Shown here: positions 5,448 to 23,859 of the stretch, in pieces
Layout of the letters: each line of letters opens with the position of its first letter
Numbering within the stretch: the first letter of the stretch is position 1
DNA from: Muribaculaceae bacterium
Lineage (GTDB): Bacteria; Bacteroidota; Bacteroidia; Bacteroidales; Muribaculaceae
Direction: 5' to 3'
Assembly: GCA_024400935.1 (NCBI GenBank)
Contig: JAKSLZ010000024.1
Span: 1-32,313, forward strand
DNA: 32,313 bases
Program-made: the position numbers and the translations under genes
The notes under the pieces: generated by a model
Seen by the model: the letters and a program-made list of their open reading frames with translations, nothing else
Told to the model about the DNA's origin: nothing
The model's database searches: none

Positions 5448-7667
5448 ATGATGATCACTTCAGAAGTTGGCAGAAGGCTGCTTTGTGCGGCAATGCTGTC
5501 TATATTGTTTTGTGTAAAAGCCCACGCAGTAGTTGCATGTCCTGATCCCTCTGTCGTCACACAACCCGACGGCACTAAACTCACCCTGATGCTACATGGT
5601 GACGAATGGTTCAACTATAACACCACTGCCGACGGATACACCGTCGTGAAGGATAATGACGGATACTACAAGTATGCCGCCCTCAATAACAACATGCTGG
5701 TGCCTAGCGCTGTTGTGGCGCATGACGGCATGCGCAGTGCCCAGGAGACATCCTGGCTCGCTGCTATAGGCAAGCATCTCACCCCTGATGCACAGTCAAT
5801 CGCTGCTATGCGCGCGCCTGCACGTCGCCTGCACGGCATGACGGGCCACTATGACTACAAGAACTTTCGTGGGCTGGTAATCCTGGTCGAATACAACGAC
5901 TGTCCATTCCAGTATGAAGACGCCCACGGCCTGTTTAACGGCATGGTCAACGACAAGGACTACCGTGGCTTCATGAGCAATGCCCAGTTCCCCGAATTGA
6001 TTCCCTACACAGGCTCAGTGCGTGATTACTTTTATGCCAGCTCGGCGGGCGAGTTTGACCCCGTCTTTGACGTTGTGGGCCCGATTAAGATCGACTACTC
6101 GCAGTATGACGCCAACAAGACGTCGGCAGCCCCGCTCCTGGTCACTGCAGCGCTCAAGGCAGCCGATGCCCAGGTCAACTATGCCGACTATGACCGCGAC
6201 GGCAACAAGAGCGTCGACATGGTGTTCTTCATCTTCTCGGGAGCCGGCAGCAACTTCTCGGGCAACGATCAGCGCCTGCTGTGGCCCCATGCCTCAACCA
6301 TCACATCGCTTTATCTCGACGGAGTGAGCTTTGGCCGCTATGCCTGTTCAACCGAGCTCTTCAGCCGTCCCGAGAGCAAGATAATCGACGGCATAGGCAC
6401 CATGTGCCACGAGTTCAGCCACGTGCTGGGCATCGCCGACCTCTATGACACCGACGGCACCAGCAGCGGTGGCAGCAGCGTCACACCGCGCAACTGGAGC
6501 GTGATGGCTCACGGCAACTACAACAACATGTCGCGCACCCCGTGCCTCTACAGCGTCTATGAGCGCTATGCGGCAGGATTCATCACACCTGAAACGATTA
6601 CCCGCAAGGGCAACTATAACCTGCGTCCGCTGGCCGAGGTCAACAACGGTTACCGCCTCGACAGTAATGTTCCCGGCGAATACTTCCTGCTCGAGACGCG
6701 CACCAAGACTGGCTGGGACGCTTATCTGCCCGGCGAGGGCATGCTCGTGTGGCGTGTAGACTCGACCGACGTTACCGCATGGGACAACAACAAGGTCAAC
6801 TGCAACCCGGCCCACAACCTGTATGAGCTGCTGCGTGCAGGCGGCGACTTGACCGCTGATGCGGCATCTGACCCCTTCCCCGGCTCGGCGGGCGTCACCT
6901 CTATTGACAATTACACTACTCCCAGTCTGCGCTCATGGACTGGTCGCAACGGCAACTACTCGCTCAGCAACATCACCCGCAACAGCAATGGCTCGGTGTC
7001 GTTTACCCTGGGTGTCACCCAGTATGAGACCATGGTTGAGGACTTTGAGGACATGGCCCTCACTACTGCCGACGCTACTAAGATTCAAGGCCGATACACC
7101 ATCTGGAGCCTCACCAAGGGTGCCCTGGTGGCCGAGACCGCAAGCGAGAACGGCGGCAACGGCACTAAAGCCTGCTCGATGCTGCGCAGCGGCATTGCCG
7201 AGAGCGGCAAACTGCCGTGGGAGGCACAGGGCCTGCAATATGACTTCTACAATCCCACCACGACCACAGCCGTAGTGCGCACTTACTGGCGTCAGCCCAA
7301 CTCCACATCGTGGGTTTCGCTCAAAAACGACGAGGGCCTCGAGACTGTATCAGTGCCCGCCCGCTCTAAGGTTACCGTCACCTTCAACAACACCTTCCCC
7401 GAGGGATGTGCACTGCGCATTGTGGAATACAGCGGCAGCCGCACCGACGTGTGCTACCTTGACGACATCGCCTTTACCGTTGTGAAAGAGGAGGAATCGC
7501 TTCCCGGTGACCTCAACGGCGACGGCAGTGTCGACGTCGTGGACGTGAATGTGCTGGTAAACAGCTTGCTCAACGGCATCGACCTTCCTGACGGCGACCT
7601 CAACGGTGACGGTGCGGTCGACATCGTCGATGCTAACTGGATATTGAACAAGATCCTAAATCCATGA
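5448..7667 (+). CDS. Secreted M6-family metalloprotease with C-terminal dockerin-like repeat
   Basis: Probable extracellular zinc endopeptidase of the immune-inhibitor-A/M6 type. A signal peptide covers about residues 1-27 (hydrophobic core, AHA before cleavage). The pro-region and N-terminal part include GLVILVEYND at 142-151, typical of M6 domains. The zinc site HEFSHVLGIAD at 321-331 fits HExxHxxGxxD. Residues about 540-680 form a beta-rich domain. Residues about 684-739 contain two calcium-binding repeats, DLNGDGSVDVVD and DLNGDGAVDIVD, each followed by a hydrophobic helix, the pattern of a type I dockerin. There are two adjacent ATGs (5448 and 5451); either keeps the signal peptide. It has its own promoter and no terminator before the 8-bp array. 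The substrate is unknown. Confidence 0.9.
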   Translation: MMITSEVGRRLLCAAMLSILFCVKAHAVVACPDPSVVTQPDGTKLTLMLHGDEWFNYNTTADGYTVVKDNDGYYKYAALNNNMLVPSAVVAHDGMRSAQETSWLAAIGKHLTPDAQSIAAMRAPARRLHGMTGHYDYKNFRGLVILVEYNDCPFQYEDAHGLFNGMVNDKDYRGFMSNAQFPELIPYTGSVRDYFYASSAGEFDPVFDVVGPIKIDYSQYDANKTSAAPLLVTAALKAADAQVNYADYDRDGNKSVDMVFFIFSGAGSNFSGNDQRLLWPHASTITSLYLDGVSFGRYACSTELFSRPESKIIDGIGTMCHEFSHVLGIADLYDTDGTSSGGSSVTPRNWSVMAHGNYNNMSRTPCLYSVYERYAAGFITPETITRKGNYNLRPLAEVNNGYRLDSNVPGEYFLLETRTKTGWDAYLPGEGMLVWRVDSTDVTAWDNNKVNCNPAHNLYELLRAGGDLTADAASDPFPGSAGVTSIDNYTTPSLRSWTGRNGNYSLSNITRNSNGSVSFTLGVTQYETMVEDFEDMALTTADATKIQGRYTIWSLTKGALVAETASENGGNGTKACSMLRSGIAESGKLPWEAQGLQYDFYNPTTTTAVVRTYWRQPNSTSWVSLKNDEGLETVSVPARSKVTVTFNNTFPEGCALRIVEYSGSRTDVCYLDDIAFTVVKEEESLPGDLNGDGSVDVVDVNVLVNSLLNGIDLPDGDLNGDGAVDIVDANWILNKILNP

Positions 7668-7672
7668 GATTG

Positions 7673-7824
7673 TAAAAGTTTAAAAGTTTAAAGGTTTAAA
7701 AGTTTAAAGGTTTAAAGGTTTAACCGTTTAAGGGTTTAAAGGTTTAAAGGTTTAAAGGTTTAATGGTTTAATGGTTTAACCGTTTAACCGTTTAAGGGTT
7801 TAAGGGTTTAAGGGTTTGCCGGTT
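7673..7824 (+). repeat. Tandem 8-bp array, unit TAAnnGTT, 18 copies plus one degenerate
   Basis: Exact 8-bp register from 7673 to 7816; a nineteenth, degenerate unit ends at 7824. Six positions (the hexamer GTTTAA across unit borders) do not change, while the central two bases vary among AA, AG, CC, GG and TG. It starts 6 nt after the protease stop and ends 67 bp before the giant surface-protein gene. No spacer sequences and no ORF. A three-unit copy lies at 119-142 on the other strand. Confidence 0.95.
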
Positions 7825-14633: not shown

Positions 14634-16619
14634 TTACCAGCTGTACACACCTAGGCTGCGCAGATTGTCCTGTGCATTTTCAATTCCTTGCCGTGCGGCT
14701 AGCTTATACCATTTTATGGCCTCATAGTGGTCCTGTTCTACTCCCTGTCCATTTTGATAACACACTCCCAAGTTATTTTGTGCGGAGGCATCACCTTGTT
14801 CAGCGGCCTTTTTGTACCACTTTACAGCCTCGTAGTAGTCCTGTTCTACTCCCTGTCCATTTTTGTAACACACTCCCAAGTTGAATTGTGCAGAGGCATG
14901 ACCTTGTTCCGCAGCTTTTCTGTACCACTTCACAGCCTCGTAATAGTCCTGAGCCACCCCTTGCTTATTGTGATAGCAAACTCCCAAGTTGAATTGCGCC
15001 TGGGCATTACCTTGTTCAGCGGCTTTGCGATACCACTTTACGGCCTCGCTGTAGTTCTGAGCTACCCCTTCCCCATTTTTATAACAGAGTGCCAAGTTGA
15101 ATTGAGCTGAGGCATCACCTTGTTCCGCGGCCTTTCTGTACCACTTCACGGCCTCGCTGTAGTTCTGAGCTACCCCTTCCCCATTTTTATAGCAGAGTGC
15201 CAAGTTGAATTGTGCTGAGGCGTTTCCTTGTTCTGCGGCCTTGAGATACCACTTCACGGCCTCGCTGTAGTTCTGAGCTACCCCTTCCCCATTTTTATAA
15301 CAGAGTGCCAAGTTGTATTGTGCGTCGGCGTCACCTTGTTCCGCGGCCTTTCGGTACCACTTCGCGGCCTCGCTGTAGTTCTGAACTACCCCTTGGCCAT
15401 CTTCATAGCAGACTCCCAAGTTAAATTGTGCATCGGCATTACCTTGTTCAGCGGCCTTAGTGTACCACCTGACGGCCTCGTAGTAATCCTGTGACACACC
15501 CTCACCATTTCTATAGCAGACTCCCAAGTTAAATTGTGCATTGGCGTGACCTTGTTCAGCGGCCTTAGTGTACCACCTGACGGCCTCGTAGTAATCCTGT
15601 GACACACCTTGCCCGTTGTCATAGCACCATCCTAAGTAAAATTGTGCCCGGGCGTCACCTTGTTCCGCGGCCTTTCTGTACCACTTCACGGCCTCGCTGT
15701 AACTCTGAGCCACCCCTTGCCCATTGTAATAGCACCATCCCAAGTTAAATTGTGCATCTGCATCACCTTCCATCGCTTCGATTTGGTAGATTTCATAGAT
15801 ATCGTATGCTGTTGCAACGGTGTCCGCGGCTTCTGCAATTTCTACAACTTCTACATTAGCCTCTATCTCTTGTTCTGCTGCTTTGCGGTACCACATTACA
15901 GCTTCTTTATAGTTCTGTTCTACCCCTTGCCCATTTTCATAACATCCTCCTAAGTTGAATTGTGCCTGGGCGTGTCCTTGTTTGGCGGCTTTTGTGTACC
16001 ACTTCACTGCCTCGCTGTAGTTCTGTGGCACACCGTTCCCTTTTTCATAACAGAGTGCTAAACTGTATTGTGCATCGGCATCACCTTGCTCAGCGGCTTT
16101 CGAGTACCACTTGACAGCCTCATAATAGTTTTGATTAACGTTTTTGCCATAGTAATAGCATTCGCCCAAATTGTATTGCGCATATGCATCACCTTGCATT
16201 GCATTGATTTTGCAGGCTTCGATGTCAATGGTATCACATACTTCAACTGCAGAATCCTCATATTCCCAAACTTCTGCTTCCACAACATCCCAGTCTTTTT
16301 CTACAGTCTTCGTTTTGGAAACATTGAGTTTTCCTCTTGATGATTTTTGTGATTTTTCCTTCTTCTTAGCTGCTTGCTCTGCCGCTCTTTTTTTTGCTGC
16401 TTGCTCGGCGGCCTTTTTCTTTGCAGCTTCCTCTGCTCTTTTCTTTGCAGCTTCCTCGGCTGCTTTCTTTTTGGCGGCTGAGTTGTCCTTCTTGGGAGCT
16501 GTGGTCTCCTTTTTAGCGGGAACGTCAAATTTCAGTTTGCCTTGGGTTGAGGCAAATGTGGTGGTTGGGCACATGGCGCATGCGGCCAGGATTACTATGA
16601 TTATGCTAGAGAACTTCAT
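14634..16619 (-). CDS. Secreted Sel1-like repeat protein (13 repeats)
   Basis: A 661-residue protein; Sel1-like repeats usually form alpha-solenoids that bind other proteins, and no partner can be named. An N-terminal secretion signal is followed by STQG near residue 25; LAAC at 11-14 could also be a lipobox, so lipidation is uncertain. Residues about 36-95 are Lys/Ala/Glu-rich, probably a charged helix or coiled coil. Thirteen 36-residue repeats (AQFNLGVCYxNGQGVxQxYxEAVKWYRKAAEQG type) occupy 144-250 and 286-645. The 35-residue break at 251-285 resembles residues 110-143, which precede repeat 1, so a linker-plus-three-repeat block seems to have been duplicated. The DNA shows matching 108-bp repeats, some nearly identical. 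The paralogue lies 85 bp upstream on the same strand. Confidence 0.9.
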   Translation of the reverse strand: MKFSSIIIVILAACAMCPTTTFASTQGKLKFDVPAKKETTAPKKDNSAAKKKAAEEAAKKRAEEAAKKKAAEQAAKKRAAEQAAKKKEKSQKSSRGKLNVSKTKTVEKDWDVVEAEVWEYEDSAVEVCDTIDIEACKINAMQGDAYAQYNLGECYYYGKNVNQNYYEAVKWYSKAAEQGDADAQYSLALCYEKGNGVPQNYSEAVKWYTKAAKQGHAQAQFNLGGCYENGQGVEQNYKEAVMWYRKAAEQEIEANVEVVEIAEAADTVATAYDIYEIYQIEAMEGDADAQFNLGWCYYNGQGVAQSYSEAVKWYRKAAEQGDARAQFYLGWCYDNGQGVSQDYYEAVRWYTKAAEQGHANAQFNLGVCYRNGEGVSQDYYEAVRWYTKAAEQGNADAQFNLGVCYEDGQGVVQNYSEAAKWYRKAAEQGDADAQYNLALCYKNGEGVAQNYSEAVKWYLKAAEQGNASAQFNLALCYKNGEGVAQNYSEAVKWYRKAAEQGDASAQFNLALCYKNGEGVAQNYSEAVKWYRKAAEQGNAQAQFNLGVCYHNKQGVAQDYYEAVKWYRKAAEQGHASAQFNLGVCYKNGQGVEQDYYEAVKWYKKAAEQGDASAQNNLGVCYQNGQGVEQDHYEAIKWYKLAARQGIENAQDNLRSLGVYSW

Positions 16620-20131: not shown

Positions 20132-21427
20132 ATGAAGAAATTGTTTTTATTGCTCGCGGCAGTGCTCACGATGGTGGGCGCACAGGCCCAGCATGCAGGC
20201 GGTGACGTGTCGCTGCTCACCAGGTATGAGCAGAACGGCGCCACCTACTATGACGTGAACGGCAAGCGCATCACTAACATGCTCGCTTACTTCAAGCAGC
20301 AGGGCTGGACGCTGTTGCGCGTGCGCCTCTTTGTTGATCCCTCGCAGGCATCAAGCGCCGACAAGGGTCAGGGCGTGATTCAGGACCTCGACTACGTTAA
20401 GGCTCTGGGTGCTCGCATCAAGGCCGCCGGCTTCAAGCTCATGCTTGACTTCCACTACAGCGACTCGTGGGCCGATCCCGCTAAGCAGTACACTCCTGCC
20501 GCATGGGTGGGGCAGTATGACGCAGAACTCAACACCACACTATACAACTACACCCGCGACTGCCTCCAGGCAATGGTCGACGCTGGCGCTACGCCCGACT
20601 ATATCCAGACTGGCAACGAGATCTCTTACGGCATGCTGTGGGGAGCACAGGGCGCTTCTTCGCTCAAGAAGTGCTACTATAACAACGATGCCAACTGGCC
20701 CCGCTTCACCACTCTGCTCAAGAGTGCCGGCAAGGCTTGCCGCGAGGTGTGCCCCAATGCCAAGATTGTGATACACACCGAGCGCGTGGGTAACATCAAC
20801 GTCATGGACCAGATCTATACCCGCATTGGCGACGCCGGTGTCGACTACGACGTGATAGGCCTGAGCTACTATCCTTACTACCACGGCTTCCTGCCTCAGC
20901 TGGAGAATGCGTTGGTGCGCCTGTCTCGCTACAGCGACAAGGAAGTGATGATTGTGGAGACCGGTTACTACCACAATTACCAGCCCGAAAACATCTCCTT
21001 TGACTACAGTGCCACTTATCCCATCAGCGACGACGGGCAGCTTGCGTTTACCAATGCGCTGATCGAGACCTGCAAGAAGTTCAAGCAGGTGAACGGCATC
21101 TTGTGGTGGTGGCCCGAGGCCAACGAAAAAGGCCTGGACTGGAACACTAAGCGCGTGACTGACCAGTGGTATAACGCAGGACTGTGGGACAATAGCACCG
21201 GCCGCGCACGCAAGGCTGTGGCTGCCCTGGGCACCTACGCTGGCTGGAACACTATCGTGGGCGATGTGAACGGCGACGGTGTAGTTGACATTACCGATAT
21301 CAATGCAGTTGTAAACCAAGTGATGACCGCCGCTGGCCAGTATGACGAGAAGTGCGACATCAATGGTGACGGTGTGGTTGACGTGAGCGACATCAACGCT
21401 GTGGTTAACATCGTTATCAATGGGTGA
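20132..21427 (+). CDS. Secreted GH53 endo-beta-1,4-galactanase with dockerin-like end
   Basis: Arabinogalactan endo-beta-1,4-galactanase family, cleaving beta-1,4-galactan side chains of pectin. The signal peptide is residues 1 to about 20 (VGAQAQ). GH53 motifs include LLRVRLFVDP at 61-70, DFHYSDSWADP at 106-116, QTGNEISYGMLW with the likely acid/base E163, and VMIVETGYY with the likely nucleophile E276. Residues about 375-431 form a dockerin-like domain: DVNGDGVVDITD and DINGDGVVDVSD, each followed by a helix with IN-A-VVN. The family does not act on starch, so its place between two amylases is unusual and suggests a mixed plant-glycan secretome. It sits behind a terminator with no visible promoter, is followed by the hairpin array at 21433-21520, and faces amylase 2. 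Confidence 0.92.
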   Translation: MKKLFLLLAAVLTMVGAQAQHAGGDVSLLTRYEQNGATYYDVNGKRITNMLAYFKQQGWTLLRVRLFVDPSQASSADKGQGVIQDLDYVKALGARIKAAGFKLMLDFHYSDSWADPAKQYTPAAWVGQYDAELNTTLYNYTRDCLQAMVDAGATPDYIQTGNEISYGMLWGAQGASSLKKCYYNNDANWPRFTTLLKSAGKACREVCPNAKIVIHTERVGNINVMDQIYTRIGDAGVDYDVIGLSYYPYYHGFLPQLENALVRLSRYSDKEVMIVETGYYHNYQPENISFDYSATYPISDDGQLAFTNALIETCKKFKQVNGILWWWPEANEKGLDWNTKRVTDQWYNAGLWDNSTGRARKAVAALGTYAGWNTIVGDVNGDGVVDITDINAVVNQVMTAAGQYDEKCDINGDGVVDVSDINAVVNIVING

Positions 21428-21432
21428 GTTTT

Positions 21433-21526
21433 AAGAACGGCGCACAAGTGCGCCTATAAGGACGGCACTGCGTGCCTTTAAGAACGGTGCATTCGCACCT
21501 ATAAGAACGGGCGTTTGCCCTATAAG
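21433..21526 (+). repeat. Array 1: four tandem hairpins after the GH53 stop
   Basis: Units of 20-25 nt. Each has a linker of form TATAAGAAC (small variations) and a short hairpin: 21439-21454 (GGCGCA/TGCGCC), 21464-21476 (GGCAC/GTGCC), 21486-21499 (GGTGC/GCACC) and 21509-21520 (GGGC/GCCC). Stem sequences differ but pairing is kept. The first linker starts 6 nt after the TGA stop. Confidence 0.9.
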
Positions 21527-21587
21527 AATTTAAGACTTGGGACTTAATATTTTATGACATTTAGGTTCTAGTTATAGGTTATTATGT

Positions 21588-21624
21588 AAGGACTCCCGTG
21601 CCGGTGATTGGCACGGGAGTCTTT
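21588..21624. terminator. Terminator between convergent GH53 and amylase 2
   Basis: A perfect 12-bp stem (21591-21602 with 21610-21621) and a 7-nt loop, followed on + by TTTATATA. It lies midway between the two inverted hairpin arrays. It is weaker on the - strand because the T-run is poor. Confidence 0.75.
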
Positions 21625-21690
21625 ATATATGTCCTGCAAAACTAGAGCTCTAATATCTAAATATCTTAAGCTCTTAAAATCTTAGTCTCA

Positions 21691-21785
21691 TATAGGCGCA
21701 GTCATGCGCCGTTCTTATAGGTGCGAATGCACCGTTCTTAAAGGCACAACGTGCCGTCCTTATAGGCACGCAGTGCCGTTCTTAC
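21691..21785 (-). repeat. Array 2: four tandem hairpins after the amylase 2 stop
   Basis: Mirror image of array 1 on the opposite strand. Hairpins are 21765-21777, 21743-21755, 21720-21733 and 21695-21710 in transcript order, joined by the same AAGAAC/AAGGAC linkers. The stem set (GGCAC, GGCAC, GGTGC, GGCGCA) overlaps that of array 1 but is in a different order. The first linker starts about 5 nt after the amylase 2 TGA. The rest of 21527-21690 holds only the shared terminator and A/T-rich sequence. Confidence 0.9.
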
Positions 21786-21789
21786 AAAT

Positions 21790-23859
21790 TCATTTGCTCA
21801 GGATGATGTTGAGGACGGTGTTGACGTCGGTGATGTCGATTGTGCCGTCTTCGTTTACATCAAACTGCTTGCCGTTGATGCCGCTCAGTATCGCATTCAT
21901 CAAGGCATTGATGTCGGTGACGTCAACCTCGCCGTCGCCGTTCACGTCGCCCTTGAGGCCGGGATCTTCGGGCTTAACAACTGTGCCCATGATGCCGTTC
22001 TCGTTATAGTAGCCGCCGTTGGTAAAGATGAAGTCGCTTGTTTGGGGAGCGCCTGAGCCTGTGCTGAATACCACGCCGGTGGGCACTTTGTCGCTCATTG
22101 TACCGCCGTCCCACAGATACACTGTGTGGCCATTCTCGGCCTTGCCCACGCTCTTGAGAGCCTGTCCGGGCCATGTGCCGCCGGTGAAGTTCACGTTCTG
22201 GTCGCCCCAAATCCATGCGTTGGGAGCGCTGTAGGTGCTGTTGCCCTCAAAGTAGCAGAACCAGTGGCCGTCGATCCACTTGGCACACTCGGGCAGGGTA
22301 GTGGGCTCGTCGCCACCGCCGGTGTACTGCTTGGTCACGTCGGTATAAGCGGTTGTGCCGTTATACTTGAGGTAGATGTCGCTTGTGATGCCAGCGATGT
22401 CGGCTGTCTGTGAGCCGTCACCGTTGTTGAGCACGAGGTTGAGCGAAGCAGCCTTGTAGGTAGTGGTGTACCACTTTGTGCCGTCGCTGGTGGTTGTGGT
22501 CTTGCTCAGCTTGTCGCCGGGCCATGTTGCCGAGAGGGTAGTGCTGAGGCCTGTCCATGCATACACATAGGGTGCCGAGGTTGCGTTGACATAGACGTTG
22601 ATGTCCTTGACCTCATCGCCGCCGCCACCGCCGCCACCGATGTCGGTGCCGTCGCTCACGTAGTAAGCATAGTTAGTGCCGGTGCTCACGAGGTTGTAGC
22701 CCTTAGTGTCAACGCCTGTAACATAGCCCACGATGATGAGCACTGAGCCCTTGGTGCCCTGCACCTTCATCACGTATCCACCGCTGCGTGTGCCCTGCTG
22801 GATGATGCTGCTGTTGTTGTTGATGCCAGCGGCCTTGCGGGCGTTGATCATCTTGCCTATCTCTTCCTGATACTGTGTGAAATGGGGCATGAAGATACAG
22901 GGAGTGCCGGGGAGTGCCAGGATGAATGCGTTGGCAGCAAGCACGTTCTTGCCCAGCTTGTTGTAGTCATCGCGATAGGTGTCGTGGTTGTCGACGAATG
23001 TCACTGCATACTGGTTGTAGTTGGGGTCGCCGGCGAGTCCCTTGTAGTTGAGCTCGCTCCAGTTTTCGTTACCAAAAGCGCGGTTCATGACAAACTTCAA
23101 GGGGAAGTCAAACGCTGCGCTCTCATATCCGGTGCCCTTGATCCAGTTGCCCACCAGGTCGTGGTTGCCGTCATAGTACTCGCCCACGCTGAACTGGGGC
23201 TTAGCGCTCTGGTTATACATCTTAGTGTACTGTGCGCCATAGCCCTTGACCATGTCATAGCGGAATCCCGCATAGCCCAGGTCGTTGAGCAGATAGTCGA
23301 GGTAAATCTTGATGTTGTTCTGCACGTTGGTGCTGGTGTGGTCCAGGTCGCGCGATCCGTCAAAGTTCTCGCCGGTGTCGTAGTTGCCGCTTACCTTGTA
23401 TCCGTTGCCCGCTGCCTCGTCGTTCTTGCAGATGTCGGCAAGGCTCCATGTCATGGTGTGTCCGTTCCATGTCTCAGTGGGGAAGTCGCACCAGTTCTTC
23501 TCGCCGTTGCGATGGTTGATCACCACGTCCTCGATGATTCCCACGCCCTTGGCCTTGTAAGTGTTGATCATGTTGCGCAGGGTGGTCTCGTTGCCGAATG
23601 TGCTGGTCTGTCTGAACCAGTACACGGGGTTGTAACCCATGCTCTTGCCTCCGCAGTAACCTGAGTTGGGCACCCAGATGAGGTCAAAGTACTGCGAGTA
23701 GAGGTCAGCCTTAGAAGTGAGAACTGTCCACTGCGACTCGCTGAAGCTGTCCCAGTAGAATCCTTGCAACATCACACCGCTATAGTTAGCGGGCCAGCCC
23801 CCTGCCTGCATCAGTACAGGTGCAGCAGCGGCTATCAAACCGAGGAGAAACTTTTTCAT
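21790..23859 (-). CDS. Secreted GH13 alpha-amylase with two C-terminal beta domains and a dockerin-like end
   Basis: Paralogue of amylase 1, acting on starch-like alpha-glucans. Signal peptide residues 1 to about 19 (VLMQAG). GH13 residues are DVVINH at 111-116, GFRYDMVKGY with nucleophile D202, VGEYYDG with acid/base E227, and FVDNHDT with D293. A run of seven Gly (408-414) links to a family-26-type starch-binding module at 419-510 (VYVNATSAPYVYAW, TWPGDKL, IYLKY). Residues 525-625 form a second, related domain (NAWIWGDQ, TWPGQAL), and 634-689 a dockerin-like domain (DVNGDGEVDVTD, DVNEDGTIDITD). The catalytic half matches amylase 1 closely but the C-terminal half differs, so the tail was exchanged after duplication. 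It has its own promoter P3 and operator site 3, and is separated from the upstream dockerin/SusF-like gene by a terminator. Confidence 0.94.
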   Translation of the reverse strand: MKKFLLGLIAAAAPVLMQAGGWPANYSGVMLQGFYWDSFSESQWTVLTSKADLYSQYFDLIWVPNSGYCGGKSMGYNPVYWFRQTSTFGNETTLRNMINTYKAKGVGIIEDVVINHRNGEKNWCDFPTETWNGHTMTWSLADICKNDEAAGNGYKVSGNYDTGENFDGSRDLDHTSTNVQNNIKIYLDYLLNDLGYAGFRYDMVKGYGAQYTKMYNQSAKPQFSVGEYYDGNHDLVGNWIKGTGYESAAFDFPLKFVMNRAFGNENWSELNYKGLAGDPNYNQYAVTFVDNHDTYRDDYNKLGKNVLAANAFILALPGTPCIFMPHFTQYQEEIGKMINARKAAGINNNSSIIQQGTRSGGYVMKVQGTKGSVLIIVGYVTGVDTKGYNLVSTGTNYAYYVSDGTDIGGGGGGGDEVKDINVYVNATSAPYVYAWTGLSTTLSATWPGDKLSKTTTTSDGTKWYTTTYKAASLNLVLNNGDGSQTADIAGITSDIYLKYNGTTAYTDVTKQYTGGGDEPTTLPECAKWIDGHWFCYFEGNSTYSAPNAWIWGDQNVNFTGGTWPGQALKSVGKAENGHTVYLWDGGTMSDKVPTGVVFSTGSGAPQTSDFIFTNGGYYNENGIMGTVVKPEDPGLKGDVNGDGEVDVTDINALMNAILSGINGKQFDVNEDGTIDITDVNTVLNIILSK

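Follow-up and report, generated by a model that had tools for sequence, protein, structure and literature searches.

The systems closest to the repeats described here are the REPs and BIMEs. Where a genome is rich in REPs, convergent REPs are found no more than 20 bp from both ORF 3' ends, their GTAG termini often give a TAG stop, and dimers with the tag on the outside are common (PMC3733652). E. coli REPs located less than 16 nt from a stop codon have been reported to stall ribosomes and to lower translation (PMC12306157). The substrates of IS200/REP enzymes are short hairpins in single-stranded DNA whose foot is flanked by a tetranucleotide (PMC6006769). Two further lines of work concern hairpins as DNA. 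GNA or GNNA loops together with at least two G-C pairs make extra-stable DNA mini-hairpins, GCGAAGC having a Tm of 78 C (PMC4686876). Template switching is reported to create perfect stems, to change both arms instantly and to keep the loops, with some DNA-stable loops enriched (PMC8794818). A literature search over titles and abstract openings, which covered the Sodaliphilus literature in part and subscription journals thinly, returned no description of the linker-hairpin arrays presented below.

The window, that is, the whole 32,313-nt stretch of DNA that was analysed, is contig 58 of a 2.84 Mb assembly that is 77% complete; all genomes used here are fragmented assemblies. Two convergent arrays of four linker-hairpin units can be read directly in its sequence right after the stop codons of two genes, as the initial annotation had described. 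Its unit size of 20-25 nt holds for the short tandem units with the exact range narrowed to 21-25 nt, and its gene names agree with Pfam except for the number in "amylase 2", for which no support was seen. The plus array (21430-21520) begins 2 nt past its stop codon and the minus array (21786-21695) begins 3 nt past its own, and each unit consists of a 9-nt linker and a hairpin, with the stems in the order listed in Table 1. The two arrays face one another across a common hairpin and are inverted copies, with 95% complementarity across 59 nt. Directly 3' of the fourth plus unit lies a degenerate linker run, TATAAGAATTTAAGAC. The linker TWTAAGRACGG has seven exact matches within the window, none of them outside the two arrays, while unit eight carries one mismatch; with up to two mismatches allowed, 43 matches were found versus 16.9 expected. 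RNA folding z-scores for array plus terminator were -6.8 and -10.1, much of which comes from the terminator hairpin. Over the whole window, Rfam gave no match at the gathering score, and a simple terminator scan had no entry for the terminator-like hairpin.

Table 1. Coordinates of the two arrays, the hairpin between them and the adjoining genes in the window.
Feature	Coordinates	Strand	Details
GH53 glycoside hydrolase, C-terminal dockerin	20132..21427	+	Pfam; stop TGA 21425-21427 abuts plus array
Plus array unit 1	21430..21454	+	linker TTTAAGAAC; hairpin GGCGCA-CAAG-TGCGCC; antisense loop CTTG
Plus array unit 2	21455..21476	+	linker TATAAGGAC; hairpin GGCAC-TGC-GTGCC; antisense loop GCA
Plus array unit 3	21477..21499	+	linker TTTAAGAAC; hairpin GGTGC-ATTC-GCACC
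Plus array unit 4	21500..21520	+	linker TATAAGAAC; hairpin GGGC-GTTT-GCCC
Long terminator-like hairpin between arrays	21583..21629		arms 21583-21602 and 21610-21629
Minus array unit 1	21765..21786	-	linker TGTAAGAAC; hairpin GGCAC-TGC-GTGCC; antisense loop GCA
Minus array unit 2	21743..21764	-	linker TATAAGGAC; hairpin GGCAC-GTT-GTGCC
Minus array unit 3	21720..21742	-	linker TTTAAGAAC; hairpin GGTGC-ATTC-GCACC
Minus array unit 4	21695..21719	-	linker TATAAGAAC; hairpin GGCGCA-TGAC-TGCGCC; antisense loop GTCA
Alpha-amylase with CBM26, C-terminal dockerin	21790..23859	-	Pfam; stop TGA 21792-21790 abuts minus array

Elsewhere in the window, about 18 tandem TTTAANNG octamers occupy 7673-7817, a few nucleotides 3' of the stop of the gene at 5448-7667. 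This octamer array is without hairpins, and the octamer is similar to the linker. At one locus of another genome (L200 in G004), octamers pass straight into linker-hairpin units.

The arrays occur throughout the window's own genome (G000) and in very few others. The pattern CTWTAAGRACG matched 79 times in this genome versus 13 times for the reversed pattern. When 101 genomes belonging to the genus Candidatus Sodaliphilus were searched for a linked pattern, TAAGRACG..CTWTAAGRACG, three had it, with 62 copies in the window's genome and 13 and 3 in the other two, and the remaining 98 gave no match; the reversed control matched once in the window's genome and once in another. When 84,980 species were scanned, a set that may omit the window's own genome, 84 stretches matched. 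Eight of them came from two Candidatus Sodaliphilus assemblies, including the only two stretches with two matches, while the other 76 had one match each. The viral-contig scan gave 24 stretches with one match apiece, which we have taken as chance. Twenty fetched loci of the window's genome, two of which (C4 and C103) match inside coding sequence only, contain 25 arrays of at least two units. The arrays sit between genes and have 2-8 units of about 16-27 nt placed head-to-tail. A hairpin-run detector reported 24 runs in these array loci versus 3 in Markov sequence, and 4 versus 0 in the transposase loci of the same genome. In stretches from eight congeners, the printed runs were unlike linker-hairpin arrays by eye, although in some of these genomes the count was above the Markov control: 10 versus 5 (G005), 3 versus 0 (G002), 3 versus 1 (G004) and 2 versus 0 (G008).

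Relative to genes, these genome-wide copies are not placed at random but are enriched at stop codons. By script, 17 of the 25 arrays begin at a same-strand stop, with the AAG of the linker at -2 to +12 nt from the stop end. The number rises to 19 with two cases added by eye: C64, where the ORF caller picked another ORF, and C124, where a variant first unit contains the stop. The remaining six comprise one array with the stop inside it, one that begins 63 nt past its stop with a terminator in between, and four that are the antisense members of facing pairs. Counted by intergenic gap, 18 of 20 (two by eye) carry an array at a same-strand stop, whereas a positional null, rough in that gap sizes and gene directions were entered by hand, expected 1.8 and never exceeded 7 across 20,000 draws. 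In several arrays the TAA of the linker doubles as the stop TAA, and the first hairpin mostly starts within 15 nt of the stop. An obvious terminator follows several arrays on the 3' side, as judged by eye. Five facing pairs were found in this genome (C53, C56, C58, C80 and C108). The host genes include pgi, leuS, infB, rmlB, yebC, pyrH and era, and are so varied that gene function is not the common factor.

We then quantified how well the variable stems keep their pairing. From G000, G031 and G004 we parsed 139 linker-bounded inserts, 98 of at least 11 nt and 41 shorter; a few chance inserts, some within coding sequence, are kept in the insert, pairing and loop counts. Perfect terminal stems of 4 bp or more, closing loops of 5 nt or fewer, were present in 84 of the 95 inserts of 11-18 nt. 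The four outer positions are paired in 83.6% of the 61 distinct inserts, compared with 11.0% after the 3' arms were re-dealt and a maximum of 24.6% across 5000 shuffles. Stems are therefore paired better than shuffled sequence. There are 16 distinct perfect stems in 50 distinct inserts, and certain loops, among them TGC, TAAC, TTT and TGGC, are each found on several stems. The covariation statistics covered three of the six length classes, with 34 of 58 distinct inserts. In these classes, both the covariation score and the proportion of paired cells were larger than in all 500 shuffles and all slid controls, whereas the counts of covarying pairs and of pair types were not consistently above controls.

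The initial annotation had taken changed stems with kept pairing to point to selection on RNA or ssDNA structure. Selection on RNA would be expected to tolerate G·U more, so the finding that G·U is as rare as A·C weighs toward DNA: each occurs three times among 433 pairs in 90 inserts with at most one non-Watson-Crick pair. This count leaves out the 5 of 95 inserts with two or more mismatches. Trimming hid one more unit with a terminal G-T (in G031), and the insert that carries one of the three G·U pairs is likely a chance one. The loops differ between strands. None of the 49 distinct hairpins with 3-4 nt loops has a GNRA, UNCG or CTTG (CUUG) loop on the sense strand, and none reads GN(N)A there. 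On the antisense strand, 20 of the 49 have GNA (7) or GNNA (13) loops, four have CTTG and one has UNCG. Repeated inserts are not independent, and distinct counts are the fairer ones; by distinct loop sequence, GN(N)A accounts for 10 of 31 antisense versus 0 sense. As a control, 548 hairpins were taken from 32 fetched loci of the window's genome after masking the arrays; these split evenly between the strands, 56 and 56. Only 3 of the 13 antisense GNNA loops are GNRA, so antisense RNA does not explain them. The GN(N)A rule covers 41% of distinct large hairpins and 57% of all units; in the window it covers 3 of 8 hairpins, with CTTG in one more. With ViennaRNA DNA parameters, folding energies differ little between the strands and are zero for the 7-mers, so the strand argument depends on published mini-hairpin data. 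Extra-stable d(GCGNAGC) mini-hairpins are known mainly from oligonucleotides and aptamers. In the arrays, the antisense strand reads GCGNAGC in 27 of 35 seven-nt inserts, and the sense strand in none. These inserts and the GNA/GNNA loops resemble the mini-hairpins of Hirao and co-workers (described in PMC4686876), the likeness being one of sequence and the setting here a genomic repeat. The covariation carries a DNA-like signature, with no G·U excess and with GNA/GNNA loops restricted to a single strand.

Blocks of several units are repeated next to unrelated genes. For example, three loci (C49, C51 and C101b) share a GCCTGC-hairpin, a mini-hairpin and GGACTTCGTCC at 91-94%. A second linker family, TTTTCRGARCG, has 40 matches in the window's genome versus 7 for the control, and its linked pairs occur in 3 of 101 genomes (27 in G000, 14 in G043 and 4 in G031). 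Seven inserts are common to both linker families, and hairpins and linkers look separable by this comparison; two of the seven are large hairpins, and the other five, of 7-8 nt, are too short to exclude independent origin. By eye, loci of the second family (L352, L367, L346 and L064 in G000, L344 and L364 in G043, L345 in G031) have both mini and larger hairpins, some beginning at a stop and others lying antisense to their neighbours.

Orthologous arrays of G031 hold their position at leuS, era and the C64 gene, and in each of them one hairpin slot is replaced in both arms; some of the replaced or neighbouring units are imperfect. At infB, the one gene compared widely, the array is present in 2 of 30 genomes, and the first unit in G004 is imperfect and unlike that of the window's genome. 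Array-free sites include era in two genomes, G013 and G043, in which the following gene is unchanged and begins about 30 nt past the stop, pyrH in G004, and infB in G031, where the downstream sequence differs. After the pgi stop, G031 has a different repeat. Several orthologous arrays suggested that new units are added at the stop-proximal end, but the two yebC arrays differ at the opposite end, and we gave up this idea. Post-stop sites that carry arrays in the window's genome bear other, short tandem repeats in the sister species (L314 at pgi in G031, L326 at era in G022), of a GGTTAA/ATCGA type and a TATTAAAG type, hinting that post-stop repeats turn over by type. Template switching as reported in PMC8794818 predicts the pattern of the arrays without RNA selection. 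Both-arm changes, one loop on different stems and the DNA-stable loop type are common to the two; in that source the hairpins are those of RNA genes, chiefly rRNA, whereas the arrays are dispersed and tandem.

We also searched for Y1 transposases. Y1_Tnp matches numbered 12 in the window's genome; G031 and G004 together gave 13, of which 12 passed the cut-off. By the strict linker pattern, none of the fetched flanks contains an array (0 of 12 and 0 of 13, with two lone partial matches), the flanks being about 1-1.5 kb, shorter at contig ends, and all three genomes incomplete. By eye, seven Y1 genes (L209-L215) have the Y---Q--HH signature of TnpA subclass 1.2, whose members are generally without typical IS200 end structures according to PMC6006769; several of the seven are flanked by long palindromic or tandem repeats. 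Three longer Y1 genes (L216-L218) have inverted repeats around GGGACAGTCCC or GAACCGTCC, which are perhaps the atypical structures reported for Bacteroidetes subclass 2.6 in the same source.

How do the arrays compare with REPs and BIMEs as a whole? Both are short tagged palindromes on the 3' side of genes, within about 20 bp, with the tag end serving as a stop; both form facing dimers with the tag outside and lineage-specific families, several per genome (PMC3733652). The arrays are likewise palindromic repeats of the 20-40 nt kind in many extragenic copies, located just downstream of ORFs and present in opposite orientations, as the counts above indicate. By contrast, they have no unpaired GTAG or CGTC tag. 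The tag of the arrays is AAGRAC, or CRGARC in the second family, and only GGAC linkers read CGTC on the antisense strand; the invariance of AAGRAC is built into the pattern used for searching, and variant forms occur, for example TAAGAGC in C124. REP stems tend to be alike within a family, while array stems vary and span 2-7 bp. Unlike REPs associated with RAYTs (REPtrons), no array flanks a Y1 transposase gene in the fetched flanks. Because place and layout are those of REPs but the tag, the stems and the missing transposase linkage are not, we file the arrays as a REP-like variant outside the GTAG/CGTC families. In summary of their structure, each unit joins a directional tag (TWTAAGRAC or TTTTCRGARC) to a short hairpin on its 3' side, units run head-to-tail, and arrays usually begin at a stop codon, some facing each other. 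Stems vary with pairing mostly kept, one strand shows a preference for one type of loop, and unrelated genes have blocks of units in common. From the sequence comparisons, we consider that the arrays probably represent a lineage-restricted REP-like DNA repeat of Candidatus Sodaliphilus (probability of roughly 0.55). Of the roles initially proposed, an amplifying repeat element fits best.

Alternatively, the arrays might be a selected 3'-UTR RNA element, in which the transcribed hairpins would shield the mRNA from 3' exonucleases or delay the ribosome at termination and compensatory mutation would keep the pairing. The pairing above controls, the mostly sense orientation directly after stops with several arrays standing before a terminator (by eye), and a first hairpin that usually starts no more than 15 nt from the stop, where E. 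coli REPs are reported to stall ribosomes (PMC12306157), all agree with such a role. Nevertheless, we regard it as rather unlikely, given that G·U is no commoner than A·C and that sense loops of the GNRA, UNCG and CUUG types are missing, both of which leave the RNA-selection reading of the initial annotation unsupported; besides, intrastrand template switching is able to rewrite both arms at once (PMC8794818). Six of the 25 arrays, among them the four antisense arrays and the one behind a terminator, do not begin at a same-strand stop, which speaks against a strict 3'-UTR role. The absence of the linked pattern from 98 of 101 congeners and of the infB array from most genomes compared points the same way. 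The reported ability of template switching to create and maintain hairpins, to keep loops and to enrich DNA-stable loops (PMC8794818) also favours a purely mutational by-product, with slippage expanding the AT-rich post-stop octamer and template switching seeding and perfecting hairpins, nothing being mobile or selected. The octamer array of the window also starts a few nucleotides past a stop, and the G004 array joins octamers to linker-hairpin units. However, the same hairpins and unit order appear at unrelated genes and two large hairpins stand under two linkers, which suggests copying between loci and makes a by-product unlikely.

Could a transposase move the units instead? An unlinked Y1 (HUH) enzyme of the RAYT type might recognise the antisense-strand hairpins. 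The window's genome encodes such enzymes, with seven of its 12 Y1_Tnp matches carrying the signature by eye, and the array hairpins with their adjacent short motif resemble the substrates of IS200/IS605 elements and RAYTs (TnpA-REP) in PMC6006769. Unlike those systems, an enzyme-repeat linkage was not found: the examined transposase flanks hold no array and several carry other palindromic repeats (by eye), so that we consider a RAYT-type element improbable. Facing pairs, one of them between the convergent window genes, and a directional linker would also suit sites for protein binding or for nucleoid organisation and supercoiling, a role suggested for the BIMEs of E. coli, but with only 25 arrays found in a 2.8 Mb assembly this seems very improbable.

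Within the preferred reading of a REP-like DNA repeat, a possible mechanism can be outlined. Units would spread as blocks copied between arrays, through gene conversion or template switching at common linkers. Stems would be rewritten and perfected as DNA, with antisense-strand GNA/GNNA mini-hairpins priming intrastrand template switching. Template switching and block copying would together account for the covariation with no need for selection. If the gene is affected, this would be secondary, with 3' UTR hairpins no more than 15 nt from the stop influencing translation termination or mRNA decay as reported for E. coli REPs. Neutral spread alone does not explain the tight placement at stop codons, which function could. 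We tentatively extend this outline to a self-propagating repeat whose heritable unit is a single-stranded DNA mini-hairpin, a proposal that we hold doubtful as yet: selection or copying would act on the antisense GNA/GNNA loop and its G-C foot, hairpin-primed template switching would rewrite the stems, and the stop-codon placement would be set by an enzyme, either of the host or of the HUH type, or by a replication intermediate where transcription ends. If true, this would be a genome-scale demonstration of strong "RNA covariation" without RNA selection. Covariation is commonly taken as proof of functional RNA, and the arrays offer a test bed for RNA selection versus template switching, being young repeats with sister species and array-free sites at hand. 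With them, the REP-like repeats would gain a member that has variable stems and an AAGRAC tag and comes from a genus of gut Bacteroidales. The arrays would also show that REP-like repeats are able to dock precisely on the stop codons of housekeeping genes.

Other tandem repeats were also seen. At two loci (L070 and L071), TAGATAGCCTATATAGCC-like tandem repeats lie between the array and the next gene. In the window, 108-nt tandem repeats occupy 14707-16130 within the ORF at 14634-16619.
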